Shown: in pieces, positions 2,067-20,989 of the stretch
Position numbering within the stretch: the stretch's first letter is position 1
Layout: each line of letters opens with the position of its first letter
From: a virus
DNA length: 30,635 bases
Virus record (IMG/VR): IMGVR_UViG_3300028161_000159
Span: 1-30,635 of that record
Reading direction: 5' to 3' (one strand)
Notes under the pieces: model-generated
What the model was told of the DNA's origin: nothing
The model's database searches: none
The model's input: the letters and a program-made list of their open reading frames with translations, nothing else
Program-made: the position numbers and the translations under genes

Positions 2067-3401
2067 ATGGAAAACATAAAACAAATCAAAATAGAAGAAT
2101 TGAAAGATTCAGAATATAATCCTCGACAAATAACAAAGGATGAATTAAAGAAATTAAAGAATTCAATAGAAAAATTTGGATTAGTCCAGCCGATTGTAGT
2201 TAATATTAATCCTGAAAGAATGAATATTGTGATAAGCGGGCATCAGAGATTGAGGGCTGCAAAAAGTTTAGGGATAAAAGAAGTCTCTTGCATGTTAGTT
2301 GATTTAAGCCCTACAAAAGAAAAAGCCCTTAACTTGGCTATGAATAAAATTGGAGGCAGATTTGAAGAGGATAAGCTTATTGATGTTTTATCTTTAATTG
2401 AGCAGGAAAATGAAGATATACTTAGTTTAACAGGATTTGACAATGCTGAAGTTAATTATCTTTTAGGATTAAGAGATAAGGAAAAAGAAGGGATATATGC
2501 AGAGACAGCAGAAGATTATTTTGATTTAACAAATAAACATGGCATACAAGAAAGAGACGTTGTGATTTTAGATGGTAAACACAAGATAATCTGCGGAGAT
2601 TCAACCGATCCAAATGTTTTAAGGAAATTATTAGGCGAGAATAAAGTAGATCTAATTGTAACTAGTCCTCCTTATAATCTTGATATTAAATATGGGAAAT
2701 ACAGCGATAATAAAGATTACAAAGATTACAAAGATATGATTCACAAAGTTTTTGATAATATTAAGCCTTTTTTGAATAAGGGGAGATTTTTATGCATCAA
2801 CATCGGAAGAGAATGGGGTCCAATTAATATGCCTGCTAAGTACGATGAATTACTTGAAAATCTTGGATATATTTTCTTTAGAAATATCTATTGGAGCAAA
2901 CCATTGGGAAGTGCTAGAGGAACAATGACGAGTAGAAATCCATTTCCTAGATATTATATACCCAAAGTGCAGACAGAAATAATTCAGATTTATTCAAATG
3001 AAGAAAAGCCAGAGATTTATGATATGTTAATTACCTACAAGTTTGGCGAAGATAAGAGAGAAAAGAAAGAACAGATTCCTAATATCTTGCTAAATAAGTA
3101 TTCAGGAAATGTGTGGAATATGATGACAGAAACAAAACTTGGAGGAGAACACCCAGCACCTTTTCCAACACAACTCCCGTTTAATTGTATAAGATTTTTT
3201 ACTTTTGAAAATGAGATAATTTTAGATCCTTTTGTAGGGAGTGGAACTTCAATAATTGCAGCAGATCAATTAAGCAGAAAGGGTTATGGGATTGAAATAG
3301 ATCCGGGATATGTTAGCACTATGATTGATAGATATTTGATGTACAAACCAACTGCTAAATTCGAGGTGATTAAAAATGAAATACAAAACAGTAGTAATTG
3401 A
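2067..3401 (+). CDS. ParB-domain / N4-N6 DNA methyltransferase fusion, 444 aa
   Basis: Residues 1-80 are a ParB/Srx-type nuclease-like N-domain: 'EYNPRQ' near 16-21 and 'SGHQRLRAAKSLG' at 57-69. Residues about 160-430 are a class-beta amino-methyltransferase: 'CGDS' at 176-179, catalytic TSPPY at 199-203, 'HPAPFP' at 362-367, and the SAM-binding motif LDPFVGSGTS at 386-395. The family transfers methyl from S-adenosylmethionine to an exocyclic amine of adenine (N6) or cytosine (N4). The S-P-P-Y form is often seen in N4-cytosine enzymes, so the base is unresolved. ParB-methylase fusions are known from phages. No restriction partner is adjacent, so self-protection of viral DNA is the likely role. 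It overlaps the next gene by 26 bp. Confidence 0.9.
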   Translation: MENIKQIKIEELKDSEYNPRQITKDELKKLKNSIEKFGLVQPIVVNINPERMNIVISGHQRLRAAKSLGIKEVSCMLVDLSPTKEKALNLAMNKIGGRFEEDKLIDVLSLIEQENEDILSLTGFDNAEVNYLLGLRDKEKEGIYAETAEDYFDLTNKHGIQERDVVILDGKHKIICGDSTDPNVLRKLLGENKVDLIVTSPPYNLDIKYGKYSDNKDYKDYKDMIHKVFDNIKPFLNKGRFLCINIGREWGPINMPAKYDELLENLGYIFFRNIYWSKPLGSARGTMTSRNPFPRYYIPKVQTEIIQIYSNEEKPEIYDMLITYKFGEDKREKKEQIPNILLNKYSGNVWNMMTETKLGGEHPAPFPTQLPFNCIRFFTFENEIILDPFVGSGTSIIAADQLSRKGYGIEIDPGYVSTMIDRYLMYKPTAKFEVIKNEIQNSSN

Positions 3402-3924
3402 TCCACCATGGGAAATACAAATGCAGGGAAAATATAAACATAGGCCTAATCGGGCTCAAAAACTTCCTTATAAGACTATGAGTATAAAAGAAATTAAGAA
3501 ATTTCCCATAAGTGATTTTGCAGAAAAAGGAGCGCATATTTATCTATGGACTACAAACAAACTCCTTCCAAAAGCTTTTGACATTTTGGAATCATGGAGT
3601 GTAAACTATCATATGACTCTTACTTTCATAAAGCCAAATGGGATGGTTGTAGCTAATGGTTATAAGTCAGCTATTGAATTTTGTTTGCTAGGTTTTTATG
3701 GAAAACCAATGCAAAAATGGATAGGAATTGCTAAACTAAATTGGATTAAAGGTTTTAATAAATCTGGAGAACATAGTTCAAAACCAACTGAATTTTATAA
3801 TTTAATTAAAAAGATGTCTCCAGAACCAAGAATAGATATTTTTGCGAGAAGAGTTATAGCAAGTTTTGATGCTTGGGGAGATGAAGCACCTAGAGAAAGG
3901 CAAGAAGAACTAAAATACAAATAA
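3376..3924 (+). CDS. MT-A70 family N6-adenine methyltransferase, 182 aa
   Basis: The protein begins MKYKTVVIDPPWE. The DPPW at 9-12 is the catalytic tetrad of MT-A70 (IME4/METTL3-like) adenine methyltransferases. Further family features are 'LPYKTMS' near 36, 'GAHIYLWTTNKLLPKA' and 'KPTEFYNLIKKMSPEPRIDIFARR' near 137-160. Its length suits the compact phage/bacterial members of the family. The DNA substrate is inferred from the neighbouring methylases; a few family members act on RNA. It starts inside the end of the preceding gene and is followed by TAA-AAA-ATG of the cytosine enzyme. Confidence 0.9.
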   Translation: MKYKTVVIDPPWEIQMQGKYKHRPNRAQKLPYKTMSIKEIKKFPISDFAEKGAHIYLWTTNKLLPKAFDILESWSVNYHMTLTFIKPNGMVVANGYKSAIEFCLLGFYGKPMQKWIGIAKLNWIKGFNKSGEHSSKPTEFYNLIKKMSPEPRIDIFARRVIASFDAWGDEAPRERQEELKYK

Positions 3925-3927
3925 AAA

Positions 3928-4626
3928 ATGATATATTTAGACCTTTTTGGAGGGGTTGGAGGATTCAGAATGGGAATGAAAAATCATAAATGCATTGGGT
4001 ACATAGATAATGATAAAAATGCCATTAAAACATACAATAAAAAATTTAAGGAGGATTACAAAATCCAAGACGTTAGAGATGTCAAACCAGAAGAAATTCC
4101 AGATTTTGATATTCTCTGTGCAGGATTTCCTTGCCAAGCATTCTCAATCGCTGGAAAAAGGAGAGGTTTCACGGATCCAAGAGGATCCTTGTTTTTTGAG
4201 ATTACAAGAATACTTGAATGCAAAAGACCTAAAATTATATTCCTTGAAAACGTCAAAGGCTTACTCAATCACAAAAAAGGGAAAACTTTTAAAGAAATTA
4301 TTAAAAAATTATGGGAATTGGGGTATAACTGTGAATGGATGGTTCTTAACAGCAAGGATTTTAAAATACCCCAAAACAGGGAGAGAGTGTTCATTGTTGG
4401 ATATCATAGAAAAAAAGCCGGACCAGAAATATTACCTTTCGGAAAAAACATTGAAAGGTTTAATAAAGAGAATCAGAAAAGGCTGGAACTTAGATATGAT
4501 GGAGATTATCAAAGCAAAAGAATCTATTCAGATAAAGGAATTGCACCAACAATACCCGTCGGCAAAACAGGAGGAAATCATATTCCGTTTATTATCGAAG
4601 AAGATAAGGAGATTAACACCTCTTGA
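3928..4626 (+). CDS. C5-cytosine DNA methyltransferase, N-terminal part (frameshifted before the last motifs)
   Basis: The catalytic part of an M.HhaI/Dcm-type enzyme is clear: motif I DLFGGVGGF at 5-13, motif IV 'GFPCQAFS' with the catalytic Cys at 69, motif VI ENVKG at 107-111 and motif VIII 'QNRERVFIVGY' at 149-159. A short target-recognition region follows. The frame stops with TGA at 4624-4626 after 'IPFIIEEDKEINTS'. The expected final motifs (RRLTPLECERLQGFP, then QMGRAVNP) are present immediately downstream in the +1 frame (4604-4753). An intact product of about 274 aa would need a +1 shift near 4597-4606. This may be a real mutation, a one-base sequence error or a recoding site. Confidence 0.85.
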   Translation: MIYLDLFGGVGGFRMGMKNHKCIGYIDNDKNAIKTYNKKFKEDYKIQDVRDVKPEEIPDFDILCAGFPCQAFSIAGKRRGFTDPRGSLFFEITRILECKRPKIIFLENVKGLLNHKKGKTFKEIIKKLWELGYNCEWMVLNSKDFKIPQNRERVFIVGYHRKKAGPEILPFGKNIERFNKENQKRLELRYDGDYQSKRIYSDKGIAPTIPVGKTGGNHIPFIIEEDKEINTS

Positions 4627-4753
4627 ATGTGAAAGATTGCAAGGATTTCCAGATAATTGGACAAAAGGAGTGAGCATGACAGAAAGATATTCACAAATGG
4701 GAAGAGCTGTTAATCCAAAAATAATAAAAGAGATTGTTAAAACATGGAAATAA
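4604..4753 (+). pseudogene. C-terminal motifs IX-X of the C5-cytosine methyltransferase, in the +1 frame
   Basis: Reading from 4604 gives 'IRRLTPLECERLQGFPDNWT', then 'YSQMGRAVNPKIIKEIVKTW' and TAA at 4751-4753. These are the conserved closing motifs of C5-cytosine methyltransferases and belong to the gene starting at 3928. The frame has no convincing start of its own at this point. It is open much further upstream (from ATG 4010), but that upstream translation resembles nothing and lies over the real catalytic domain. The last 10 bp overlap the start of the next methylase. Confidence 0.75.
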
Positions 4754-5487
4754 GAAAAGGAGATGTATATCTGCTTGACAAAAATCGATTAATGTGCGGA
4801 GATAGCTTGAGCTTGATAGACGTGCAGAAATTAATGGATAAAAAAACTGCAAATATGATGTTCACAGATCCACCATATAATATAGACTATGATAGAGAAA
4901 ATCATGCATGGAAGCATGACTACAAAAGCAATCTTCCAACTAAAAAAATAATTGGAGACACAAATTTTGAGGTTATAAAATTACTTGATTTAATGAATAT
5001 AGGAATTATTAAAGGAGCCTTCTATTTATGTTGCGGGACTAATCAAATTGGAGATATTTGGAATTGGTGTGTAAAAAAATTAAAACAAAATCCAAGAATG
5101 TTGATTTGGTACAAATCAAACATGAGTATAAGCAGAAGTGATTATCATAGAAGATATGAAACAATAATGTATTGCTGGTTTCCAGGTAAGAAATTTAGGG
5201 GACCAAAGGATGGAACAAATACCGATGTTTGGCCTATTCAGAATAGAATTGTAAGCAAATATGTTCATCCAACGCAGAAACCAGTTAGATTAATTATGAA
5301 AGCTATACAAAATAGCTCAGATGAGGGAGATATAGTTTTAGATTTATTTGGAGGCAGTGGAAGCACTTTAGTTGCGTGTGAAAAAACTGATAGGATTTGT
5401 TATATGATGGAACTAGATCCAAAATACATTGAAGTCATCATAAATAGGTGGCAAACACTAACTGGTAAGGAGGCCAAAAAACTGTAA
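4744..5487 (+). CDS. DPPY-type N6-adenine (or N4-cytosine) DNA methyltransferase, 247 aa
   Basis: An amino-methyltransferase of the N6_N4_Mtase family: 'CGDS' at 18-21, catalytic DPPYN at 42-46, 'HPTQKP' at 175-180, SAM-binding LDLFGGSGST at 199-208 and 'MELDPKYIEVIINRW' near the C-terminus. The order (DPPY before the FxGxG loop) is that of class beta. D-P-P-Y favours adenine N6. It is the fourth methyltransferase in a row and overlaps the C5-enzyme remnant by 10 bp. It is probably a solitary modification enzyme protecting viral DNA, since no endonuclease is nearby. Confidence 0.9.
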   Translation: MEIRKGDVYLLDKNRLMCGDSLSLIDVQKLMDKKTANMMFTDPPYNIDYDRENHAWKHDYKSNLPTKKIIGDTNFEVIKLLDLMNIGIIKGAFYLCCGTNQIGDIWNWCVKKLKQNPRMLIWYKSNMSISRSDYHRRYETIMYCWFPGKKFRGPKDGTNTDVWPIQNRIVSKYVHPTQKPVRLIMKAIQNSSDEGDIVLDLFGGSGSTLVACEKTDRICYMMELDPKYIEVIINRWQTLTGKEAKKL

Positions 5488-7474: not shown

Positions 7475-9673
7475 ATGGCAGAAGAAAATATTGCAAAAAA
7501 GAGCTATTGGAATAAATTTAAAGATTTGTTTATCAGGGAAAAAGAAACTAAGACCGTCATTCCAGTTGGAAGTATAACTGAAGCTTCGAGATCAGAATTA
7601 AACAAGGCCCTTGAAACAAGATTTTTCTTTAAACCGCCTTTTGGATATCCTAGAAATGTTGACCTGCTTGAAATAAGAAGATTAGCAGCCACTCCTTATG
7701 TTGAAATGTGTTTAAGTGCAATTATAGACGGAATAAGTGCAATTCCTTGGGGAATTGTTCCTAAAAACGAAACAAAAAGTATATCTCCGGAAATGGAAAA
7801 AAATATTGAACATATAAAAACTTTTTTTGAAAATCCAAATACTAATAAAGAAAGTTTTGGATATATACTTAGAAAAGTAGTAAGAGATATTTTAGAAATT
7901 GATTCTGGAGTGATTGTTAAACAATTTAACTTAAAAGAAGAATTGGTCGGCATTGTCGCGAAAGATGGTGCAACTTTTGCTAAGAATCCAGATGTTTTTG
8001 GAATGTTTACAGATAGAGAAGACATAATTCTGGATACACAGATTGTGGGAGACAATAAACAAGATGAAAATATGGGGCAGGGAATGATTAAATCTGCTAA
8101 TGCAAGAGAACAAGCTGCTTATTTCCAGTTTGGGTGGGTTGCTGGAATCAGGCCAATACCTTTTGGAAAAAGAGAAGTTGTTTGGTTCGAAAGAAATCCA
8201 AGAACAGATATTTTTTATGGAAGAAGCCCAATTGAGATTCTTGCTAATGTCATCCAGATGTTGATTTATGCAATTGAACATAATCTTCAGTATTATAATG
8301 ATAATAATATGCCCAAAGGAGTTTTAGGATTAGAAGATAGTGAAGCAGAAACAGTTAAAGCATTTGAAGAAATGTGGAATGAAAGTTTAAGGGAAGTAGA
8401 TCTTGCAGGAAATTGGAAAAGAAGATTTCATCATGTTCCAATTATTAACAAAAAACCAACATTCACAAGAATACAATTCTCAAACGCTGAACTAGAATTA
8501 CTTGAGCAACAAAGATGGTTTAGCAAAATGGTGTGGGCTTGTTTTGGAGTAACACCAACTGAACTGGGATATACAGAAGATGCAAAAGGAATGGCTAATC
8601 AAATTGTTCAAAGCCAAATATTTAGAAAAAGAGCAATCAATCCAATTTTAAAATTAATTGAATATAATATTAACAAAGAAATAATAAGTGAGTTTGGATA
8701 TGAAGGGATTAAATTCAAATTCTTAATCTTTGACATTGAAGAAGAGATGAAGAAGATTAATCTCTATGAAAAACAAATCGATTCTGGAATAAGAACTGTT
8801 AATGAAATAAGAAAATCTGAAGGACTTGATGAAGTAGAATGGGGTGATAAACCTCCAAAAGAATTTAGACCCAATACTGGAACTACTTTTAATATGAATG
8901 AGATGGTTCAAAGAGAATCTAATAAAATAAATCAAGACATGCAGGAGAACAAAGCACTATCAACATCATCTCCCTTATTTCCAAAAGAAGGCGAGCAATT
9001 ACAAAAACATATTAAAAAATTAATGAGAGATAATGAAAAGAAGATTATTGAACTTTTAGAAAAAGAAGGAAAGCAGAAAAAAATCATTAAATTGAGTGTC
9101 AAAGAAGTTATTGATTCCTTGAACTCCTTGGTTATCTTTGAAGGAATTAAGGAAATTAGTGATAATGCGGTTAAAGAAGTTTTTGAAAAAGGTTGGGAAA
9201 AATCAGAAAAGCAATTGAATAGAAATCTTGAAATTAATAAAGATGCTATTGAATTTTTGAGAAATCATACTTTCAGCAATATTAAAGGAATGACTGAAGA
9301 GATTGCTAATGATTTAAAGCAAGAATTAGAAAGAGGTTTCATCAATACAGAATCAATCTCTAAATTAAAAGATAGAGTAAAGAAAGTTTTTGATGTTGGG
9401 GAAAATAGAGCAGAGATGATTGCGAGAACAGAAACTAATAGGGCGGAAAATCAAGGACAATTACAAGCTATGAAAAAAAGTGGTGTTGAGATGACTAAGA
9501 CATGGCTTGCAACTCTTGATAATCGGACTTCTCTAATTTGTAAAAGATTAGACGGTCAGACAGTTGGATTAAATGATAAATTTAAAGATTCACTTACAAA
9601 GGAGGAATTTGATGCACCACCATCTCATGTTGACTGCAGAAGCACAGTGGTGTTCAATATTGAAAATGACTGA
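7475..9673 (+). CDS. Portal protein fused to MuF-like minor head protein, 732 aa
   Basis: Residues about 40-470 look like a phage portal, the dodecameric DNA gate: 'RRLAATPYVEMCLSAIIDGI', 'WFERNPRTDIFYGRSPIEIL', 'YNDNNMPKGVLGLEDSEAE', 'LLEQQRWFSKMVWACFGVTP', and a helical region ending 'RTVNEIRKSEGLDEVEWGD'. A charged linker (about 490-560) leads to a C-terminal SPP1 gp7/Mu F-like domain: 'AEMIARTETNRAENQGQL', 'TWLATLDNRTSLICKRLDGQ' and 'APPSHVDCRSTVVF'. These are usually separate adjacent genes, so this is a fusion. It is the first gene after promoter copy A and follows terminase, as expected. Residue limits are approximate. Confidence 0.9.
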   Translation: MAEENIAKKSYWNKFKDLFIREKETKTVIPVGSITEASRSELNKALETRFFFKPPFGYPRNVDLLEIRRLAATPYVEMCLSAIIDGISAIPWGIVPKNETKSISPEMEKNIEHIKTFFENPNTNKESFGYILRKVVRDILEIDSGVIVKQFNLKEELVGIVAKDGATFAKNPDVFGMFTDREDIILDTQIVGDNKQDENMGQGMIKSANAREQAAYFQFGWVAGIRPIPFGKREVVWFERNPRTDIFYGRSPIEILANVIQMLIYAIEHNLQYYNDNNMPKGVLGLEDSEAETVKAFEEMWNESLREVDLAGNWKRRFHHVPIINKKPTFTRIQFSNAELELLEQQRWFSKMVWACFGVTPTELGYTEDAKGMANQIVQSQIFRKRAINPILKLIEYNINKEIISEFGYEGIKFKFLIFDIEEEMKKINLYEKQIDSGIRTVNEIRKSEGLDEVEWGDKPPKEFRPNTGTTFNMNEMVQRESNKINQDMQENKALSTSSPLFPKEGEQLQKHIKKLMRDNEKKIIELLEKEGKQKKIIKLSVKEVIDSLNSLVIFEGIKEISDNAVKEVFEKGWEKSEKQLNRNLEINKDAIEFLRNHTFSNIKGMTEEIANDLKQELERGFINTESISKLKDRVKKVFDVGENRAEMIARTETNRAENQGQLQAMKKSGVEMTKTWLATLDNRTSLICKRLDGQTVGLNDKFKDSLTKEEFDAPPSHVDCRSTVVFNIEND

Positions 9674-10007
9674 ACTAAGTGTATATAGGGGTGATGATAA
9701 AACTTGGAATTTGAATTTTACAGATGCAAATGGAGATCCAATAGATCTAACAGGAGCAACAGTATTTTTCACAATCAAGGTCAATAAAACAGACAAGGAT
9801 TCAGATGCAATAATATCAAAGGACCAATCATCACATGTAGATGCGGTAAACGGCCAGACAACTATTTCTCTAACAGATTCTGATACAGATGTGAGGGTTG
9901 GGAATTATCATTATGATATTCAATTAGTGGATTCTTTAGGGATTGTCACGACTATTGTTGTGGGGGCTTTCAAAGTCAAACAAGAGGTAACAACGAGGAT
10001 ATCCTAA
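9666..10007 (+). CDS. BppU-N-like structural protein (baseplate or fibre anchoring domain), 113 aa
   Basis: ATG 9666 lies in the last codons of the portal fusion. A longer in-frame form from 9573 would only translate the MuF domain out of frame. The sequence has the pattern 'VYRGDDKTWNLNFTDANGDP', 'DLTGATVFFTIKV' and 'GNYHYDIQLVDSLGIVTTIVVGAFKV'. This resembles the beta-sandwich domain at the N-terminus of phage upper baseplate proteins (BppU/DUF2479-like) and many stand-alone phage proteins. It probably attaches fibres to the virion. Its placement right after portal rather than in the tail module is unusual. Confidence 0.6.
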   Translation: MTELSVYRGDDKTWNLNFTDANGDPIDLTGATVFFTIKVNKTDKDSDAIISKDQSSHVDAVNGQTTISLTDSDTDVRVGNYHYDIQLVDSLGIVTTIVVGAFKVKQEVTTRIS

Positions 10008-10009
10008 AA

Positions 10010-10261
10010 ATGAGTGAAACTATAAATATTCAGATTGGGACAGAAACTATAAATATTCAAGCAGGAAATGATACACTAGACTTGACTGTGCCCGATAATA
10101 CAATAACAGTGCAGAGTTCTATTGAACCATCATCATTTGTAAATGAGGGTGTAAAATTTAGATTTAGTGGAATCGGAGGAAATACTTATCTTGTTTTTAA
10201 TTCTTCTACAAATAAATTGGAGCTCTGGGTTAATGGAGCAAAAAAGGCACAATGGAGTTAA
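10010..10261 (+). CDS. Small fibre-like structural protein, 83 aa
   Basis: The N-terminus carries two near-identical beta segments ('ETINIQIG', 'ETINIQAG'). The C-terminal half ('KFRFSGIGGNTYLVFNSSTN', then 'KLELWVNGAKKAQW') has the beta-hairpin style seen at the ends of phage fibre proteins. Start by TAA-AA-ATG after the preceding gene. The stop overlaps the next start by one base (TAATG). No named family is recognised; a virion surface role is inferred from style and neighbours. Confidence 0.55.
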   Translation: MSETINIQIGTETINIQAGNDTLDLTVPDNTITVQSSIEPSSFVNEGVKFRFSGIGGNTYLVFNSSTNKLELWVNGAKKAQWS

Positions 10262-13245
10262 TGAAAATTTTCATTTTGATTTGTAGTATCTTATTGTTGA
10301 TAACCCCAGTTAGTGCAGATATGGATATTTTTGATAATTTAAATGGAACCGGATATAATGCAACTTTTAAGAATTTCTTTGGAGATTTTATTGGTAATGG
10401 AAGTCAGTTAAATGGATTAACAGAAAGTCAGATTATTGATCTGCAACATACGGCAGATACAAACAGAAGTGATGCTGAAATAAACACTTTAATAGATAAT
10501 CGTGTCATTCAATCTTTTATTGAAGCTTTAGGATTTTTCACAGGAGCCCATACCATAGATACAAACAGAAGTGATGCAGATATTCTTTCTGTGGCCAGTG
10601 TTTATAACGATACTGATTGGGTTTTAAATCAAAGTTATTTAACATCCGAAACTGATCCTATTTTTACTTCGGAAAATTCTTCAATATGGAGTGCTATTAA
10701 TAATAAACTCGAATCAACTGATCAGAAATATAATGATACTAATTTTATTGAAGCTGTAAATACAACATCAAATATTGAAGGTTTGGGTTTTGTTACAGGA
10801 TCACATACAACAGACACTAATCGAACTGATACAGAAATAAATACTCTTATTGATAATAGAGTTGTTCAAGCATTTATAGAAGCTTTAGGATTTTTCACAG
10901 GAGCCCATACCGTAGATACAAACAGGTCAAATGAGGATATTTTGAATGTGACTAGTGTTTATAATGATACTGTAGCAATTAACACCAAACTCGATGCGAC
11001 TGATCAACGTTACAATGAGACTGACATTCTTAATTCTGTGAACACAACTGCAAATATAGAAAGTTTAGGATTTGTTCAGGGGGTACATACAACTGATACA
11101 AACAGATCAGATTCAGATATTCTTTCAATTGCTTCTGTTTATAATGAAACTAATTTAATTAATTCTGTAAATACTACATCAAACATCGAAGGGTTAGGGT
11201 TTACACAAGGAGCTCATACAACAGACACGAACAGATCTGATTCTGAAATTAATACTTTGATAGACAATAGAGTTATTCAATCATTTATAGAAACTCTTGG
11301 TTTTGTAATTGGTGCCCACACCATTGACACTAATCGAAGTGATGCTGATATTCTTTCTGTTGCAAATGTTTATAATGATACCTCAAGAATCGATGCTATT
11401 AATACAACTTCCAATATCGAGGGCTTAGGGTTTGTTCAAGGACAGCATACAACGGACACGAATAGATCTGATTCAGATATTCTTTCTGTAGCATCAGTTT
11501 ATAATAATACTAATTTTATTCTTAATCAAAATTACCAAAATGCAACACAGGTAAACAATTCTATCATAGCCAAAATTACACAGGCATTTGTGGAATCTCT
11601 TGGGTTTGTTATAGGTGAGCACACTGTTGATACAAACCGAAGCGACGCGGATATATTAAATGTAGCCTCTGTTTTTAATGAAACTGATTTAATAAATAGT
11701 GTTAATACTACTTCTAATATTGAATCTCTTGGTTTTACTCAAGGACAGCATACTGTTGATACAAATCGAAGTGATGCTGATATTATTTCGGTTGCGAGTA
11801 TTTATAATGAAACTGACTGGGTCATTGCACAAAACTATCTGATTTCTGAAACTGATCCTAATCTATGGACTTCTGGATTTAATTCAACAGGAGATAGTAG
11901 ATGGCTAGATGACACGACAATAGGCAACTGTTCTGAGGAGGGAAGTTGTAGTTTAATAACTTATGATTCAGAGTTAAATTATACTGTTGACACAAATGAG
12001 ACTACTAGGTTCGGAAATTTAGTTGATGTAGATTGTTCTGGAACTGATAAAGTTATTGGTGTTCAAACCAATGGAACTGTTTTATGTGGAACAGATCAAA
12101 CTGGCGGAGGAGGTACAGGAAAAGCTGGAGTAGGGCCTTATTTATATAACGATACTGATGAGATGTTTTTCAATGAAACTTTCTTGAATGGAACGATTGA
12201 TAACCGAGATCAATTTCAGACAGATGCAGAAGTGAATACTTTAATTGATAACAAAGTTATCCAGTCTTATATTGAAGATCTTGGATTTGCCACAGGGGCT
12301 CACACAATTGACACAAACAGAAGTGATACTGATATTCTTAGTGTCTCCTCGGTTTATAATGAAACTAATTGGGTTGTTGCTCAGAATTATTTAACTTCTG
12401 AATCAGATCCTAGCCTATGGACTTCTATTTTTAATTCAACAGGAGATAATAGATGGTTAGATGATACTACAATTGGAAACTGCTCAGGTGATGGTTCATG
12501 CTCTTTAATAACTTATGATTCTGAAACTTCTAGTTGGGATAAAAATGAGGGAGATGATTTTGATGGTGTTTGGAGTAGTTTAACAAGTGTGCCTTCAGGA
12601 TTCAGTGATGATGTTGACAACGACACAACTTATACACATCTTTCTAATTTTACAGATAATATTGGAGTAAGCTCTGACTGGGATGAAATAGGTGATGTTC
12701 CAACAGCAACACCAAGTAATGGAGACACAGCAAATTTATCAACTGCTGATCAAATTTATGACTGGGTTATAGGTCTTGGATATATTACAGATGGAAATAC
12801 TAACTGGGATAATTCTTATGGATTTATTACAAACAGCGTCAGCGATTTAGTCAATTATTATCTTAAATCAGAAGTTTACAATAAAACTGAAATAGACACT
12901 CAGGGAGAAATGGAAACTATTTGGGGTGTAACATTATCTACTGATTCTGAAAGAACATCAGGTCTTGCAGCACAAGATGCATGTTCTGAAATAAGTGGAT
13001 GTGTTGTTGGGGCAATAACAGATGGAAATACAAATTGGGATAATAGTTATGGATTTATAACATCAACAAATGTTGCTTATACAAATAAATCAAATACTTT
13101 TTCAGGAGAGCAATTTTTTAATGCAGGTATAAATATTACCCAAGACCAAAACATATCGATAGGTGCTTGTCAAGAAACTTGGAATGGCACTTGTTTGAAT
13201 ACCTATTGTCAAGGAACTTTAATTCAATCAATAGGATGTGCTTAA
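10261..13245 (+). CDS. Giant exported repeat protein with signal peptide, sequon-rich adhesin/fibre-like, 994 aa
   Basis: ATG 10261 overlaps the previous stop (TAATG). An in-frame ATG at 10252 would add only three residues. It begins with a Sec signal peptide (MKIFILICSILLLITPVSA before DMD). Eleven copies of a module with core HTxDTNRSDxDI fill about residues 60-700. There is also a duplicated 'WLDDTTIGNCS' block and a Gly-rich hinge. The C-terminal third contains tail-fibre-like 'YLKSEVYNKTEIDTQ' and 'FSGEQFFNAGINI', and ends in a Cys-rich tail. About 50 N-x-S/T sequons suggest dense N-glycosylation outside the cell. No membrane anchor is visible. It may be a secreted adhesin, surface-exclusion protein or virion fibre. 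A cleavable signal is unusual for a cytoplasmically assembled fibre. Confidence 0.75.
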   Translation: MKIFILICSILLLITPVSADMDIFDNLNGTGYNATFKNFFGDFIGNGSQLNGLTESQIIDLQHTADTNRSDAEINTLIDNRVIQSFIEALGFFTGAHTIDTNRSDADILSVASVYNDTDWVLNQSYLTSETDPIFTSENSSIWSAINNKLESTDQKYNDTNFIEAVNTTSNIEGLGFVTGSHTTDTNRTDTEINTLIDNRVVQAFIEALGFFTGAHTVDTNRSNEDILNVTSVYNDTVAINTKLDATDQRYNETDILNSVNTTANIESLGFVQGVHTTDTNRSDSDILSIASVYNETNLINSVNTTSNIEGLGFTQGAHTTDTNRSDSEINTLIDNRVIQSFIETLGFVIGAHTIDTNRSDADILSVANVYNDTSRIDAINTTSNIEGLGFVQGQHTTDTNRSDSDILSVASVYNNTNFILNQNYQNATQVNNSIIAKITQAFVESLGFVIGEHTVDTNRSDADILNVASVFNETDLINSVNTTSNIESLGFTQGQHTVDTNRSDADIISVASIYNETDWVIAQNYLISETDPNLWTSGFNSTGDSRWLDDTTIGNCSEEGSCSLITYDSELNYTVDTNETTRFGNLVDVDCSGTDKVIGVQTNGTVLCGTDQTGGGGTGKAGVGPYLYNDTDEMFFNETFLNGTIDNRDQFQTDAEVNTLIDNKVIQSYIEDLGFATGAHTIDTNRSDTDILSVSSVYNETNWVVAQNYLTSESDPSLWTSIFNSTGDNRWLDDTTIGNCSGDGSCSLITYDSETSSWDKNEGDDFDGVWSSLTSVPSGFSDDVDNDTTYTHLSNFTDNIGVSSDWDEIGDVPTATPSNGDTANLSTADQIYDWVIGLGYITDGNTNWDNSYGFITNSVSDLVNYYLKSEVYNKTEIDTQGEMETIWGVTLSTDSERTSGLAAQDACSEISGCVVGAITDGNTNWDNSYGFITSTNVAYTNKSNTFSGEQFFNAGINITQDQNISIGACQETWNGTCLNTYCQGTLIQSIGCA
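10447..12339 (+). repeat. Eleven tandem-dispersed coding repeats (HTxDTNRSD module)
   Basis: The core codes for His-Thr-x-Asp-Thr-Asn-Arg-Ser/Thr-Asp/Asn. It recurs eleven times, usually preceded by '(I/V)E(A/S/T/G)LGF' and followed by 'ILSVASVYN(D/E)T'. The DNA copies differ at many third codon positions, so the repetition has been kept at protein level and is not a recent slippage product. A second duplication ('DDTTIGNCS...GSCSLITYDSE') occurs near 11906-11970 and 12460-12525. Confidence 0.85.
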
Positions 13246-13246
13246 A

Positions 13247-16200
13247 ATGGCAACGAGAAGATGGTTAAAAATAGGTGGTGGCGTAGCTGCAACAATCACA
13301 ACAATTCTTGGATTGTTTGGTTTGCTTAGTGTGCTCTATGGATTTGAGATTGTTGATCTAACAGGAGATTTTATTTGTGAAGGAACTTATGAAAATCCTT
13401 GCATATCAGAGTTTGAAATCAGAAATCCTAATTCTTATAATGTTGATATTTATTCTAAGGACCAAGTCAAATTAGATTTTAGCCCAGATATAAAAGATTG
13501 GGCATTGTTTGTTCCGGACGGACGGTGCTCAGCTACAGGAACGTGCGCCTGTGACTTAGAGAATGGAGAAAAGATCGGATTTGAAGATTGGAGATGTGTT
13601 GATTTTACAAATAAAACAAAGTCTAGAAAAGATAAGGTTTATAATTTTAGATTTGAGCGGTATTCTACAACTAAGTTTAGGTTAGTTGGTTTCAAAAAGA
13701 ACCAAGAAGATACAATTAAATGGGGATTTGAAACTAATAATAAAACTTTAGATCCTACTTGGATTGGAATTGAAAAAGAAAAAGAAGGTGGTGGAATTAT
13801 TGTCCCTCAATTTAATCAATATAGGGTAGGCAAAGAATTAGAGTCAAATATCTATGATATTGATGTTGAAGGATTAAAAGTTATCTTATCTCCAAAAGAA
13901 GGAGTTATTGTCGATAAAAACATTGAAACAATAAGGAAAGGTGCAACAAAAAGTAAAATAGATTCAAGAAATTCTGAGAATGTGACTAAAAAAGATGGCC
14001 TATTTGAAATTACTCTTGATAACACAAAGAAATATTATGAGATTGGAGAGGAGAATATAACAATAGAAGGAATTGCTGACTCGTGGTGTGAATATAATTG
14101 TGTTGCTTATTTTAACATAACTCCTGCTTCATCAAATCTTGCTCCTGGAATAGAAATTTATACAAAGCCAGATAATAAAAAATATAGGCTTTATGTTTTT
14201 AAGACACATCCAAAAAGAAACAGGGGAGAATGGAAAATAGTAAATGATGAAGATAATTTTGAATTTGAAGAAGGAAAAACTTATGCCTTCAAATTATTAT
14301 TGTTTAAAGGAGAAAAAGAAAGTGTTAAATGGGGAGTGAAAGCAGTTGGTGAAGAGTTAGATCCAACTTTTTATGGTGATGATGATATGCTTTTAGTTTG
14401 GGGGCAGAGTACAAATAATTATCCAAATTATAATGACGGGAGCACTTCAAATTCCTGGGGATCAACAAGAGATGTACACACAGATGTTGTAGCAGACACT
14501 TCACAATTACATATAGTTCAGCATCCTAATAAAGAGGAGAAATTATTGGTTTGGATTGATACATCCGAAGATATCCATGCTAAATTTTGGAGTGGAAGCG
14601 TATGGTCTGATTATTCTGAACTTGAAATTGATGGGTATATTTCAGATAGATTTACAATCGCAGTAGCTACAGAAACAAATACAGGAGATTATCTTGTGGC
14701 TTATTCAAGAGCAGATTCATCAGTTGATGATTATGTAGCCTATCAAACTTATATAGATGGGATTGGATGGAGTGGAGTGCAAACAATTAATTTAGATCTA
14801 GGAGCACAGACAGAAAACATGGTTTTAGTTTCAGATCCAACATCTGATAATATTATGCTTTTAGCATCAGAATCAGGAGATAGCCTTGATGCATGGATAT
14901 GGGACGGTGATAGCTTTGAAAATCACGTACAATTAACAATAGATCTTGAAGATGGAAGTTCTGGAGATCCAACAACTTATGTGCCTGAGGTGCCATTTGC
15001 AACTGCATGGATAAACAGTACAGGGGAAGCAATAGTTATATGGGGGGAAGAAGGTGATGAAATTTATAGCAGAAGATGGAATGGTGCATCTTGGGATTCA
15101 GCAAAATTACAAAAAAGTGGAGTTTTAACAACAGATCTTCAATATATAGTTTTAAGATCAAGTATGTGGGAAGATAAAATCCGAGGGGGATTTTTTGATA
15201 ATGACAATGATATCTGGGGATTTGAGTTAAACAGCACATTAGATATAGTTAATTTAACAGAGTTTTCAATAACAGGTTATACAAATTATCCTTACAAAGC
15301 TATTGATGTAGTAATGCCTGAAGAGGGAAAATTTGTTTATGCATGGTCAGACACTGCATATGGTTATTACATGGTTGACAGTTATAATTATGCCTCTGAT
15401 GCTCAGACTTTTACAACAAATGATATCCGAACAGTCCACGGAGATTTTACTGGAGACATGGCAATGTTTTCATGCGAAGATGATACCGGAGATTTAAGTG
15501 TTTTCATGTATAATATTTCAGCATCATCAGAATCCTATACAGACAATCTTGAAACAAGCATGGAAGAAACATTTTCACATCAAATTCAGGTCAATGTTTA
15601 TTTTGGTGAAGCTCCTGCATTTACTCCAAATATAACAGAATGCGGAAATTTAACACAAGCAGATACAACTTATTATATTCAAAATAATCTTCAATCAAGT
15701 GCAGGATGTTTAAGAGTAATGGCAAATAACATTACAGTCGAAGGACAAGGGTATAATATAGATTTTGGAAGTGGAGAGGAATATTATGTATCTGCAATTA
15801 GAATGATGAGTAATTATTCAACCATAAGAAATTTCACAGTTAATACAACAGATCCTTATTGTGCTGGATGCCAAATGGGGCTTTATATTGATGGAACAAG
15901 TAATGGAAAAGTTTACAATAATACAATAGAGTATGTCCGTTTAAATGCTGTTGATGCATGGGCAGTAGGAATTGATGTTGAAGGAGATAATCATAGAATT
16001 AGCAATGCTTATGTTACAAATGTAGATCAATATGATTTAATAACTGCATGGTCAAATAATGTTGAATTTGTCAATATAACAATTAATAATTCTGGAGCTT
16101 TTGAAGTGCTAAGTCCTTATGCATCAACAAATATTATTTTTAGAAATATTATAGAATATAATAACACTGGCGGTCATGATATATTTTTTTGGGATGATCA

Positions 16201-16831
16201 AAATGCAACAAATATCTCAATAATTGATTCTGTTTTGGATGCAGAAATTTATATTGATGATGCAACATCTAATCTTACAGTTATCAATACAACATATCCA
16301 AGTGAACAAATTGATTGGGGATATTTAGAAAGACAATGGTATGCAACTCCAAAGGTCACTGAATCAGATAGTTCTCCTATAGAAAGTGCGACAGTTAAAA
16401 TAAATGATACTTCAAGCCAAGTTTATTCTGATACTACAAATGCTCAAGGTTTTGCTCCTCAAACAATTTTAACTCAATACATAAATTCAAGTGCGGTTAC
16501 AATTCATAAAACCCCTCATATTTTTAGTGCTAATAAAACAGGTTATAATCAAAATATAACAAATGTTACAATGGATCAATCAAAAACAGTAACTTTAATT
16601 CTTGAAAGTGCTGATACTTGCATATATGCCTCAGAAAATTGGAATATAGACTGTTCTAATAATTGTGTAATCAGTTCAAATGTGAATATCGATTTAGGAT
16701 CTAATATTTCAATGACTGGAACAGGAACATTTACAATTAACAATGGAATTAAAATTTCTGGATGGACTTATAGATATGCAGATAGAACTTGTTATGTAAA
16801 AGCTTTCGGCTCTGGTGGATTTTTTCAATAA
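13247..16831 (+). CDS. Giant membrane-anchored surface protein with beta-propeller-like and beta-helix regions, 1194 aa
   Basis: ATG 13247 (TAA-A-ATG) is preferred to the in-frame GTG at 13238. Residues about 9-34 (after 'MATRRWLKIGGG') form one hydrophobic segment with positive residues before it, so the bulk should face outside. Two related beta domains follow, each ending in a 'KWG...LDPT(W/F)' motif (about 25-180 and 265-380). Residues about 390-780 contain WSGS/WDGDS-type blades suggesting a beta-propeller. Residues about 810-1030 are a right-handed beta-helix ('NNITVEGQGYNIDFGSG', 'YSTIRNFTVNTT', 'NGKVYNNTIEYV'). A carboxypeptidase-regulatory-like domain follows ('SPIESATVKINDTSSQVYSD'). 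It is rich in N-glycosylation sequons. It may bind or degrade glycans; no catalytic residues are assignable. Confidence 0.75.
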   Translation: MATRRWLKIGGGVAATITTILGLFGLLSVLYGFEIVDLTGDFICEGTYENPCISEFEIRNPNSYNVDIYSKDQVKLDFSPDIKDWALFVPDGRCSATGTCACDLENGEKIGFEDWRCVDFTNKTKSRKDKVYNFRFERYSTTKFRLVGFKKNQEDTIKWGFETNNKTLDPTWIGIEKEKEGGGIIVPQFNQYRVGKELESNIYDIDVEGLKVILSPKEGVIVDKNIETIRKGATKSKIDSRNSENVTKKDGLFEITLDNTKKYYEIGEENITIEGIADSWCEYNCVAYFNITPASSNLAPGIEIYTKPDNKKYRLYVFKTHPKRNRGEWKIVNDEDNFEFEEGKTYAFKLLLFKGEKESVKWGVKAVGEELDPTFYGDDDMLLVWGQSTNNYPNYNDGSTSNSWGSTRDVHTDVVADTSQLHIVQHPNKEEKLLVWIDTSEDIHAKFWSGSVWSDYSELEIDGYISDRFTIAVATETNTGDYLVAYSRADSSVDDYVAYQTYIDGIGWSGVQTINLDLGAQTENMVLVSDPTSDNIMLLASESGDSLDAWIWDGDSFENHVQLTIDLEDGSSGDPTTYVPEVPFATAWINSTGEAIVIWGEEGDEIYSRRWNGASWDSAKLQKSGVLTTDLQYIVLRSSMWEDKIRGGFFDNDNDIWGFELNSTLDIVNLTEFSITGYTNYPYKAIDVVMPEEGKFVYAWSDTAYGYYMVDSYNYASDAQTFTTNDIRTVHGDFTGDMAMFSCEDDTGDLSVFMYNISASSESYTDNLETSMEETFSHQIQVNVYFGEAPAFTPNITECGNLTQADTTYYIQNNLQSSAGCLRVMANNITVEGQGYNIDFGSGEEYYVSAIRMMSNYSTIRNFTVNTTDPYCAGCQMGLYIDGTSNGKVYNNTIEYVRLNAVDAWAVGIDVEGDNHRISNAYVTNVDQYDLITAWSNNVEFVNITINNSGAFEVLSPYASTNIIFRNIIEYNNTGGHDIFFWDDQNATNISIIDSVLDAEIYIDDATSNLTVINTTYPSEQIDWGYLERQWYATPKVTESDSSPIESATVKINDTSSQVYSDTTNAQGFAPQTILTQYINSSAVTIHKTPHIFSANKTGYNQNITNVTMDQSKTVTLILESADTCIYASENWNIDCSNNCVISSNVNIDLGSNISMTGTGTFTINNGIKISGWTYRYADRTCYVKAFGSGGFFQ

Positions 16832-16890: not shown

Positions 16891-17889
16891 ATGAAACAAG
16901 AAATATTTATGTTAAATTCTCATCCAATTTCTTTTGGAGAGATTGAAAAAAAAGGTGAAAAGAATTTTTTTATTGAGGGATTTATCTCTACTTCTGATAA
17001 AGATTTGGTTGATGATGTTGTAACTGAAAGAGCTCTAAACAGTATGATTGAACAATTAAAGAGCAGAGTTATAAAATTAGATTTTGAACATGAAGCCTTC
17101 AGGGGGGAGAGTGAAATAGAAATGGAAATCAACAAAACCAGAATTCCATTAGGAAAAGCATCTGATTTTACAAGAGTTAAAGAGACAGAGAAAAATGGAA
17201 TATTAGTTAGATGGGATGTAAATCCAACTTGGAAAAAATTTGATGAAAAAGGGAATGTTGTTATGGATTTTAATGAGATTAGATTTAATGTTGAAAATGG
17301 TTATTATGATGCTTTTTCAATTGCATTTATTCCAACAAAAGATACAACTATGGTTAAAGATGGAAATAAGATAAGATTGCTTGATGATTTGAATTTATTA
17401 AATGTTGCATTAACTGGAAATCCAATAAATCCTAAAGCTTCTGTTACTGAAGTTTTTATGAAATCTTTAGATTATTTAGAGAAAAATAATTTTTCACAAA
17501 ATAAAATTAAAAAGGAGGTAAAAATGTCAGAGGAAGAGAAGAAAGACAAAGCTAGTGAAGAGTCTAACATTGAATCAACTGAAGAACCTGCTAAAGAAGA
17601 ATCAACTGATGAATCTAGTGAATCTGCTGATGAATCAAAAGAGGAACCAGATAGTGAAGCTAAAGAAGACTCAGATAAAGAATCTTCAGAAGCTCAACAA
17701 AAAGTTGAAAAAGCAAGAGTTGAAGTGAAAAGCAGACTTGAGAAAATTGAAAATAGACTTGAGTCAATTGAAAAAGCAATTAGTAAGCCCATTCAAAAAT
17801 CTAAGTCTGAGCAAGCACCAACTCAAAGAGAAGGTCTTGAAACTCAACAAAAGGCCATAGATGAAGCTAAACCTCTTGATCAAATCTAA
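16891..17889 (+). CDS. Prohead protease with C-terminal scaffold domain, 332 aa
   Basis: An HK97 gp4/U35-S78-type capsid maturation protease. 'FFIEGFIST' is the first strand, 'KLDFEHEA' carries the likely catalytic His67, 'YDAFSIAFIP' the likely Ser143, and 'LNVALTGNPINPKA' (170-183) is the typical closing motif. Residues about 210-332 are an acidic low-complexity region (E/S/D/K-rich) followed by a coiled coil ('VKSRLEKIENRLESIEKAIS'), as expected for a scaffold. ATG 16891 is chosen because promoter copy B predicts transcription starting there; an upstream open frame from 16789 lies before the TATA box. An in-frame internal start at 17524 can make the scaffold alone. Confidence 0.88.
   Translation: MKQEIFMLNSHPISFGEIEKKGEKNFFIEGFISTSDKDLVDDVVTERALNSMIEQLKSRVIKLDFEHEAFRGESEIEMEINKTRIPLGKASDFTRVKETEKNGILVRWDVNPTWKKFDEKGNVVMDFNEIRFNVENGYYDAFSIAFIPTKDTTMVKDGNKIRLLDDLNLLNVALTGNPINPKASVTEVFMKSLDYLEKNNFSQNKIKKEVKMSEEEKKDKASEESNIESTEEPAKEESTDESSESADESKEEPDSEAKEDSDKESSEAQQKVEKARVEVKSRLEKIENRLESIEKAISKPIQKSKSEQAPTQREGLETQQKAIDEAKPLDQI
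17514..17519 (+). promoter_or_regulatory. Strong internal ribosome binding site for the scaffold
   Basis: A perfect GGAGGT Shine-Dalgarno lies inside the protease gene, four bases before an in-frame ATG at 17524. It falls exactly at the boundary between the protease domain and the acidic scaffold region. Most starts in the window lack such a strong site, so it is unlikely to be there by chance. Confidence 0.8.
17524..17889 (+). CDS. Nested in-frame capsid scaffold protein, 121 aa
   Basis: Translation from ATG 17524 in the protease frame gives an acidic N-terminal stretch (MSEEEKKDKASEESNIEST...) rich in Glu, Ser, Asp and Lys. A coiled coil ('VEVKSRLEKIENRLESIEKA') and a short polar tail follow. 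The arrangement copies lambda gpC/Nu3, in which the scaffold is made from an internal start of the protease gene in excess over the protease. The very strong ribosome binding site compared with the leaderless protease start would supply that excess. Expression is inferred, not shown. Confidence 0.7.
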   Translation: MSEEEKKDKASEESNIESTEEPAKEESTDESSESADESKEEPDSEAKEDSDKESSEAQQKVEKARVEVKSRLEKIENRLESIEKAISKPIQKSKSEQAPTQREGLETQQKAIDEAKPLDQI

Positions 17890-17890
17890 G

Positions 17891-19045
17891 ATGGAAGAAT
17901 ACAAAAATATCCCAACATCAGGACAAGGATCAGTTGGAACTTTAACTATTGAACCAGACCAGAAGAATGTTTATTCACATTCATTTGGAATGTTGAAAGA
18001 TAAGACTCCCTATATTGATCATTGGATAGGCACTGATTTGAGACCAAATCTTAAAGCACTTTACAATCGTGGAGTACATAAAGCTTTGACAACTCAGACT
18101 GGTGGAGCAGGAACTGCTGGGACAGCTATGATTCAGGTTTACTTGGATCCTAGAATTGTTGACATAACAAGGAAAGAAACACCACTTGTGGAATTAATTC
18201 CAAGAGTTTCTAACCAGGGTATGACAGCGGATTTCAATAGATTGACAAACAAAGGTTCAGCATTCACTTCTGCAGAAGATGGATCACTTAATGAAGCTAA
18301 TGATACTTATGAAAGAGTAAGTAAGCAGATAAAGTTCCTATATGCAGTTGGAAGAGTGACAGGACCAGCTCAAGCAGCTCAATCTTCTTTTATATTGCAG
18401 GGTGCGTTAGCGACTGGATCAGGATTGAATGAAAATCCTTTTTCATCAGCAGTTGCACCAAATGCAAGACAACTTGAAGTTTTAACAAAAGCAAGAGCTT
18501 TAAGGGAAAAAGAAGAAGATTTGATTGTTAATGGAGACTCATCTACAGATTCAACAGAATTTGATGGGATTGTCAAACAACAAGGTACAACTAATGTAGT
18601 TGATTTGAGCAGTGCATCATTAACTTGGGATGATATTGAAACAGCGGCAAGAACTGCATTTGATGCTGGTGGAAGGCCACAAATCGCAGTTGCATCAAGC
18701 TCTGTTATTCAAGATATCAGAACAATAATGATTGAGACTTTCAAATTCGGCCCAGCTGATATGAAAGTAGGTGCTGAACTACCGTTTGGAGTTAGTACAA
18801 ATCTTGCATTGCAGACTTTAGTAGGATCAATACCAGTGATACCTAGTAGATTCTTATCTAATGTATCTGGTTCTAAACAAATTTATTTTTTGGACATGAA
18901 TCAAATTGAGATGAGGGTTTTATTAGACATGACTTTTCAAGAGTTAGCAATAACTAATGATAGTCAGAAGTTTATGCTGAAGGTCTACGAATGTCTCGCT
19001 TTGAGAGCACCTGAGTTCAATAGCTTTATCGACAATATTGCATAA
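17891..19045 (+). CDS. Major capsid protein, HK97 fold, 384 aa
   Basis: It comes directly after protease/scaffold (TAA, one G, ATG 17891; the earlier in-frame ATG at 17861 lies inside the protease gene). The N-terminal 70-80 residues ('GQGSVGTLTIEPDQKNVYSH...') may be a delta-like segment. The P- and A-domain style matches HK97-type capsids: 'TPLVELIPRVSNQGMTADFN', 'TYERVSKQIKFLYAVGRVTG', 'ALREKEEDLIVNGDSSTDST', 'VASSSVIQDIRTIM' and 'IPVIPSRFL'. Position, length and domain style agree. The final codons contain a degenerate copy of the late promoter motif, and a U-rich hairpin follows the stop. Confidence 0.88.
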   Translation: MEEYKNIPTSGQGSVGTLTIEPDQKNVYSHSFGMLKDKTPYIDHWIGTDLRPNLKALYNRGVHKALTTQTGGAGTAGTAMIQVYLDPRIVDITRKETPLVELIPRVSNQGMTADFNRLTNKGSAFTSAEDGSLNEANDTYERVSKQIKFLYAVGRVTGPAQAAQSSFILQGALATGSGLNENPFSSAVAPNARQLEVLTKARALREKEEDLIVNGDSSTDSTEFDGIVKQQGTTNVVDLSSASLTWDDIETAARTAFDAGGRPQIAVASSSVIQDIRTIMIETFKFGPADMKVGAELPFGVSTNLALQTLVGSIPVIPSRFLSNVSGSKQIYFLDMNQIEMRVLLDMTFQELAITNDSQKFMLKVYECLALRAPEFNSFIDNIA

Positions 19046-20397: not shown

Positions 20398-20805
20398 ATG
20401 GAATTTGTAAACAAAGGACCTAACCAGAAAGTAAGACAAAGAAACCCTAAAGGTTATAGATGGGAGACTGTAAAAACAGGCGAAACTATTGACTTGCCAA
20501 AAGAAGTTGGACAAGCTTATGGATTCGAGCCTGCAAGAAATAAGAAGAAAGTGACTGAAGGAAAAGTCTCAGACAAAAAAGTTGAGACAAAGCAGTTCGA
20601 GGGATCTGGAGAATCTAAAAAAAAAGAAAGTCTGGTTGAAAGTCTTCAAAAACTCAAGAGAATTGGCAGGAAAACTGCTGAAGACATTGCAGATGTCTAT
20701 TCCAGTGAAGAAGAGTTAGTTGACGCTATTTCTAATAATAAAAAACTTCCATTTAGGGATGATGTAGCTGATTTACTCAAAAAAGAATATGACAACAAAA
20801 AATAA
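20398..20805 (+). CDS. Helix-hairpin-helix protein of the head module, 135 aa
   Basis: ATG 20398 (TAA-A-ATG) is preferred to the in-frame ATG at 20383, which lies in the previous gene. The N-terminal half is basic, with 'RQRNPKGYRWETVKTGETID' that could form a small beta domain, then a Lys/Glu-rich linker. The C-terminal third, 'ESLQKLKRIGRKTAEDIADV' and 'SSEEELVDAISNN', has the pattern of a helix-hairpin-helix DNA-binding repeat. Similar short HhH proteins occur beside head-tail connector genes of phages. Role unknown; DNA contact at the head vertex is one possibility. Confidence 0.55.
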   Translation: MEFVNKGPNQKVRQRNPKGYRWETVKTGETIDLPKEVGQAYGFEPARNKKKVTEGKVSDKKVETKQFEGSGESKKKESLVESLQKLKRIGRKTAEDIADVYSSEEELVDAISNNKKLPFRDDVADLLKKEYDNKK

Positions 20806-20989
20806 TGTTTTAGCGAGAGAAAATCGGATTATGATTAATGAAATAAAAGAGGATGTTAAATCAATTAAATTAGATTTGGCAAAATTAACAAATCATTATT
20901 CTAAAAGACTGCCTGTCTGGGCAACTGCTTTAATTACAATTTTGGGAAGTCTGAGTACAGGATTAATCGTGGCTTTTGTAGGAGGTTAA
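20789..20989 (+). CDS. Small membrane protein, XhlA/holin-like, 66 aa
   Basis: It overlaps the preceding gene by 17 bp and ends one base before the next ATG. The layout is a polar helix with heptad pattern ('RENRIMINEIKEDVKSIKLD') followed by one hydrophobic segment (about 43-63, 'VWATALITILGSLSTGLIVA'). That is the architecture of XhlA-type phage haemolysin/holin accessory proteins. If it acts in lysis or membrane permeabilisation, it is the only lysis candidate here. It could also be a membrane protein of the virion or a superinfection factor. No endolysin is visible in the window. Confidence 0.55.
   Translation: MTTKNNVLARENRIMINEIKEDVKSIKLDLAKLTNHYSKRLPVWATALITILGSLSTGLIVAFVGG

Follow-up and report, generated by a model that had tools for sequence, protein, structure and literature searches.

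Two giant genes in the head operon of a probable DPANN virus encode predicted exported glycoproteins that likely decorate the infected cell

The window analyzed here, a linear IMG/VR virus record of 30,635 bases, carries two intact giant genes between its portal and protease/MCP genes. On balance we favor the reading that they form a late module of Sec-exported, N-glycosylated lectin- and fibre-type proteins that is displayed on the infected cell; their export and glycosylation as predicted from sequence are well supported, and their display is likely to be on the cell and not on the virion. The pair (994 aa, 10261-13245, and 1194 aa, 13247-16831) occupies 21% of the window, matching the "over a fifth" of a preliminary description made from the DNA letters, and shares the strand of the entire late operon, with which that description had grouped it. 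The head and tail genes all lie on this strand, with decoration, connector, tail tube and tail-tip genes following the MCP in that order. The relevant features are:

From 5919, + strand operon: TerL
7475-9673: portal (PF04860, E=1e-30)
9573..10007, +: BppU N-terminal-domain-like protein (PF10651, E=2.5e-8; phrog_1084, E=3e-20)
10010..10261, +: 83-aa fibre-like small protein (44% identity to L008:79-282)
10261..13245, +: 994-aa secreted fibre-like protein, with signal peptide, repeats, a phage-fibre-type C-terminal half and 52 sequons
10261..10317, +: MKIFILICSILLLITPVSA, predicted to be a cleavable signal peptide (12-residue hydropathy 3.5, site between V-S-A and D)
13247..16831, +: 1194-aa predicted type II membrane protein (signal anchor, C-terminus outside), with 29 sequons
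13262..13336, +: transmembrane helix, residues 6-30 (AF2 helix 6-30; 19-residue hydropathy 1.9; charge polarity positive-inside in 33 relatives)
13337..13777, +: conserved ectodomain next to the membrane (C-x-G-T-x3-P-C invariant in a 32-sequence alignment)
14504..15265, +: lectin-like beta-propeller, residues 420-673 (Foldseek PLL/AAL lectins; moderate pLDDT)
15629..16285, +: right-handed beta-helix, residues 795-1013 (PF13229, E=1.6e-5; AF2 strands, pLDDT about 50-85)
From 16789: protease
17861-19045: MCP

The stop of the 83-aa gene overlaps the start of the 994-aa gene (TAATG, 10259-10263), and the ATG of the 1194-aa gene at 13247 lies one base past the stop of the 994-aa gene (TAAAATG, 13243-13249), so that the 83-aa, fibre and anchor genes look translationally coupled. 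We place the start of the 994-aa gene at the ATG at 10261; an alternative in-frame ATG at 10252 would give 997 aa. The BppU-N-like gene upstream in the same operon has no signal peptide. Elsewhere in the window, a conserved 66-aa protein that carries a membrane segment at its C-terminus (20789-20989), found among the head genes of many relatives, is a candidate for a holin-like or anchor role. Ahead of the terminase, four different DNA methyltransferase genes follow one another (2067-5487; ParB-N6/N4, MT-A70, C5, N6/N4), and similar sets occur in some relatives. The C5 gene is divided over two frames (3928-4753), with the N-terminal part at 3928-4626 (PF00145 positions 3-182 of 324) and a C-terminal-like segment at the end of the overlapping ORF 4010-4753, reflecting either a frameshift or an assembly error.

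Both giants carry a predicted export signal, as the preliminary description had proposed. In the 994-aa protein, MKIFILICSILLLITPVSA is followed by DMD, with V-S-A as the -3/-1 motif; here and in all other proteins, signal peptides were called by hydropathy and the -3/-1 rule. The 1194-aa protein begins with a net positive tail, a 25-residue hydrophobic stretch and then an acidic segment. The fibre-like protein repeats the pattern LGF..G.HT.DTNRSD.DIL..ASVYN.T; its Pfam matches to galanin, herpes UL49 and others were set aside as chance matches of these repeats. The propeller and beta-helix suggested earlier for the 1194-aa protein were both recovered: since the full-length model is weak overall (pLDDT 49.9), only these two regions were used, and the propeller, itself a modest-confidence model, matches PLL/AAL-type lectins (Foldseek E=1.5e-7, prob 1.0), while the PF13229 match of the helix falls slightly under the curated cut-off.

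A new viral family of signal-anchor domains is defined by residues 1-177 of the 1194-aa protein. Used as a query, these residues led to 33 viral loci and, among 371 genomes of the phylum of the Woesearchaeota MAG, to one tailed-virus contig; a second match in those genomes, of 39 residues, was discarded as a fragment with a stop. All 33 members have a basic N-tail, a hydrophobic stretch and a beta-rich ectodomain whose start is mostly acidic (mean charge +3.9 before the membrane segment and -2.1 after it, the N-side being positive in 33/33). Residues C44, G46, T47, P51, C52 and K150 are invariant in the 32-sequence alignment, and AlphaFold predicts a compact beta domain (pTM 0.70, pLDDT about 90 over most of it). 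This ectodomain had no confident match in Pfam, PHROGs, PDB or BFVD, and the fold search returned nothing at E<=0.001 in PDB or BFVD; two weak PDB sequence matches, both to AI-designed proteins, were dismissed as chance. The C-termini of the family are unrelated to one another and reach about 2,400 aa, with an alignable counterpart of the window's propeller and beta-helix in L035. The anchor gene comes immediately after an exported-type gene in 15 of the 33 loci; in the other 18 no signal-peptide gene was detected directly before it, and it often lies within the tail module.

Signal-anchor proteins of other types come after signal-peptide fibres in L047, L048, L052 and L081. One such family (L047, L048, L052, L072) has the pattern VRI.V.K..T.F..W..AG.EY...FDG.S.M, with some members after signal-peptide fibres. 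Another type has the Cys-rich motif YYC..LC..S..TRCY..YDYC..GW (L005 4696-5049, L081 17713-18405, L042 2922-5468), and a 1600-aa signal-peptide protein of L005 ends with a similar motif.

Relatives of the virus were found by alignment-based scans; single-protein scans with the 1194-aa protein and the portal gave none because they required exact 8-residue patterns, and neither giant had a match in 50,697 phage records. A two-sequence connector alignment led to 17 viral loci, whose MCPs are 57-80% identical to that of the window and, as queries, returned 328 viral relatives; 80 of these were taken further. The MCP search also returned six genome-bin contigs (two Woesearchaeota, one Nanoarchaeota, one 'archaeon', one WOR-3 and one Bacteroidia). 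After duplicate removal, 81 loci were annotated with HMMs built from the window genes. Large exported-type proteins were confined to three slots, with none in the six other intervals counted:

Between portal and protease: large exported-type proteins in 7 of 64 loci
Between MCP and the 20383 homologue: in 6 of 51 loci
Between connector and the 21818 homologue: in 14 of 23 loci

At least one such protein is present in 11 of the 14 relatives that span the head region, the exceptions being L021, L028 and L030. The pair was only in part aptly described as "inserted": it is a module in one of three variable slots, and it is recurrent in the virus family rather than a one-off. In L008, the closest relative, the two giants sit in the slot they have in the window, after a homologue of the 83-aa gene. 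Its tail genes from the tail tube onward are mostly 96-99% identical to those of the window; its fibre and anchor show 60-72% identity in some stretches and are of other lengths (its 548-aa protein shows 63% identity to the 994-aa protein over aligned residues). The proteins of other relatives contain lectin/adhesin domains (BclA_C, Laminin_G_3 (LamG), MAM, YadA_head, CBM96), and some match phage families of tail fibres, tail spikes or BppL_N. A second and distant lineage of tailed viruses, from a DPANN bin (G242:C7; L111/L143), encodes a signal-peptide protein of 972 aa in its portal-protease interval, and an anchor homologue followed by a signal-peptide protein; several giant signal-peptide genes lie in its head and connector region. 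Among other features of the family, intein-like insertions occur in the HK97-gp10 homologue of L005 (11807-13074, followed by an HNH-like ORF) and near TerL/portal in L064 (2367-3407), and several portals are enlarged to 945-1181 aa.

Sequon counts, compared with composition-preserving shuffles, bore out the richness that had been noticed in both giants (52 vs 24 expected in the 994-aa protein, 29 vs 16 in the 1194-aa protein) and extended it to the family. A strongly hydrophobic N-terminus is present in only 8 of 597 conserved virion genes, and in 68 large proteins outside the assigned genes, most with V-x-A-type cleavage sites or signal anchors. In these 68, N-x-S/T occurs 1,702 times vs 830 expected (2.0x), 66 of them exceeding expectation; the 597 virion genes have 1,145 vs about 1,145 (1.00x). 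Control motifs in the exported-type proteins gave 0.98 (reversed S/T-x-N), 1.01 (D-x-S/T) and 0.74 (N-x-A), and N-x-S/T stood at 1.05x (60 vs 57) in signal-less cargo of the same slots, 1.02x in head-decoration proteins and 0.71x in signal-peptide fibres of unrelated phages. The shuffles, the reversed motif and the matched signal-less cargo rule out a by-product of repeats or composition; the controls are matched, and the z-score of 35 makes the exported-type proteins look more independent than they are, given their kinship and repeats. N-glycosylation sequons thus appear to be under selection in the exported-type proteins. In G242:C7, exported-type proteins show 1.86x vs 1.07x for the others. 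The exported proteins on most DPANN chromosomal contigs have about 2x, vs 0.7-1.1x for other proteins there, with the exception of one small contig (L142, 0.74x). An acidic residue at -2 separates the specificity of bacterial PglB from that of archaeal AglB; D/E occupies this position in 10.8% of sequons vs a background of 12.6%, which speaks against PglB-type glycosylation and points to an archaeal (AglB-like) pattern. Unrelated phages that have signal-peptide fibre-like genes with no sequon excess include L002, L003, L004 and L006. The MCP set (78 sequences, including the window's) has a modest N-x-S/T excess, 264 vs 183 shuffled, which is probably a shared inherited motif.

Similar domains are also found in DPANN chromosomes; host chromosomes, like other DPANN viruses, had been suggested as a place to look for the pair. 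Large ORFs matching the propeller/helix part of the 1194-aa protein occur in 37 of 343 Nanoarchaeota-phylum genomes, in several cases on long contigs; the 994-aa fibre has matches in 7 of the 343, and neither matched in 257 Bacteroidota genomes. Chromosomal relatives of the fibre occur in G104, G250 and G260. The one on G104:C10 is a 1659-aa signal-peptide protein adjoining a gene that resembles methionyl-tRNA synthetase, and the one in G250 is a fibre-like protein, 62% identical over 74 residues. A few matched ORFs may be viral, as G003 carries a virus of the family. These homologous domains, the sequon test with its controls and the signal-bearing relatives strongly support the earlier view of the giants as host-surface-like proteins that are exported rather than cytoplasmic. 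The host is probably a DPANN archaeon (Nanoarchaeota/Woesearchaeales-type), because four of the six bin assignments, the archaeal sequon type and similarity to DPANN and not Bacteroidota genomes all point that way. The DPANN host proposed in the preliminary description is supported to that extent; a provirus with host flanks, sought in the MAG contig G003:C163 (36 kb), was not found, and this contig resembles a circularly permuted free virus genome.

Based on this analysis we can propose how the module might work in a tailed virus infecting a DPANN archaeon. From the translationally coupled late genes, the 994-aa product would be exported by Sec and lose its signal peptide, and the 1194-aa product would enter the membrane as a type II protein with propeller and beta-helix outside. 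We infer that both are expressed late, secreted, N-glycosylated by the host (as the family statistics suggest), associated with each other and shown on the surface of the infected cell, the fibre-like partner probably being retained there by the anchored one, as their recurrent adjacency hints. The likeliest effect would be that cell contacts are remade, because the domains are adhesive/glycan-binding and resemble the host's own surface proteins; infected cells could be bridged to fresh cells, giving local spread, or host receptors could be covered, which would keep progeny from being lost to the cell that made them. Such display would presumably benefit the virus. Superinfection exclusion, spread and altered partner attachment, as offered earlier, are all plausible, and the predicted lectin-type domains would favor adhesion. 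Recurrence in most relatives checked suggests that late in infection the surface of the host cell is remodelled by these viruses. More tentatively, DPANN tailed viruses may routinely coat the infected cell, as part of the lytic programme, with virus-encoded glycoproteins built from domains shared with host adhesins, redirecting cell-cell contact including episymbiont-partner attachment.

The position of the giant genes in the structural operon and the tail-fibre/tail-spike matches of some relatives speak against display on the cell, as do the three spanning relatives without exported giants and the 18 anchor loci with no signal-peptide gene detected directly upstream. The first two would fit the main rival explanation, in which secretion or retention in the membrane and N-glycosylation are followed by attachment of the proteins to particles, at the membrane or after lysis, making them glycosylated receptor-binding fibres. 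This explanation also draws on the fibre-type repeats, on the BppL_N matches and above all on the slots of L021 (10146-14626), L091 (8435-10318) and L030 (5019-8951), which are filled by large signal-less, fibre-like or LamG genes without sequon excess; since the LamG proteins of L021 have exported homologues in other relatives yet lack signal peptides in the same slot, virion use of the cargo is possible. We nevertheless consider such fibres rather unlikely here. Assembly of tailed virions takes place in the cytoplasm, the 1194-aa protein is predicted to be membrane-anchored, and in L022 and L048 the proteins have a second, C-terminal hydrophobic segment followed by KRKRR. Moreover, the tail-tip candidates of the window (26654 and 28410) have neither signal peptides nor sequon excess, so the virion has its own receptor-binding candidates. 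Ordinary cytoplasmic virion fibres, with hydrophobic N-termini that are not export signals, would likewise suit the operon position and the repeats; they seem extremely improbable given the textbook signal peptides, the positive-inside polarity and a twofold sequon excess that follows the signal sequence and not the fibre fold.

Alternatively, the giants could be host-serving adhesins of the lysogenic-conversion type, improving attachment of the DPANN cell to its partner so that virus and host both benefit. Their domains are common to chromosomal DPANN surface-type proteins, and LamG and propeller proteins on DPANN surfaces have been proposed to serve in attachment to the partner (PMC10266531). 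Location within a late morphogenesis operon, a window in which no integrase was seen and the free-virus appearance of G003:C163 all weigh against this, and we regard it as very unlikely.

If display on the cell is correct, tailed viruses devote a fifth of a compact genome to proteins of the host surface and not of the particle, among archaea that in many cases rely on surface contact with a second cell. The new family (signal anchor plus invariant C-x-G-T-x3-P-C ectodomain) can be used as a marker. The sequon excess limited to exported proteins offers a simple test of exported vs cytoplasmic viral proteins, which also points to archaea as hosts of metagenomic viruses that show it.

Envelope proteins encoded by viruses and lectin-type surface proteins of DPANN archaea are each known on their own; neither recurrent giant exported glycoprotein modules in tailed-virus head operons nor the signal-anchor family was found in the libraries and literature searched, and a mostly open-access literature search gave no description of such proteins in DPANN viruses. 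Phage surface proteins of superinfection exclusion and lysogenic conversion include Llp of T5, Ltp of TP-J34 and Cor of phi80. These are likewise virus-encoded and exported to the envelope of the infected cell, the destination predicted for the window giants, but they are small, mostly lipoproteins and lie outside head operons, whereas the proteins described here are roughly 300-2400 aa, glycoprotein-like and lectin-bearing, and the two giants, at 994 and 1194 aa, do not fit the small-protein/lipoprotein type. With phage tail fibres and receptor-binding proteins (BppU/BppL, LamG, C1q/BclA_C-like tips) the module has fibre repeats and tip-type domains in common; unlike those cytoplasmic proteins, which have no export signal, it combines a signal peptide, sequon excess and a membrane-anchored partner. 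The head-tailed proviruses of Woesearchaeales (WATPVs) are also tailed viruses of the same host group, and their description does not mention signal peptides, adhesins, surface or transmembrane proteins in its main text (PMC11705971). A further parallel lies with the surface adhesins of DPANN archaea, extracytoplasmic proteins with a Sec signal and propeller/lectin-type domains (PMC10266531). The chromosomal adhesins (LamG, propeller, beta-helix and fibre-like giants, including nanohaloarchaeal 'SPEARE' and related giants) share the Sec signal and domain types with the window giants and, in Nanoarchaeota-phylum genomes, direct sequence similarity and a similar sequon excess. Unlike SPEARE-type proteins, the window giants showed no VirB4-like ATPase domain in a Pfam scan, and unlike the chromosomal adhesins in general they are viral, encoded in a late structural operon and paired with a virus-specific signal-anchor family.
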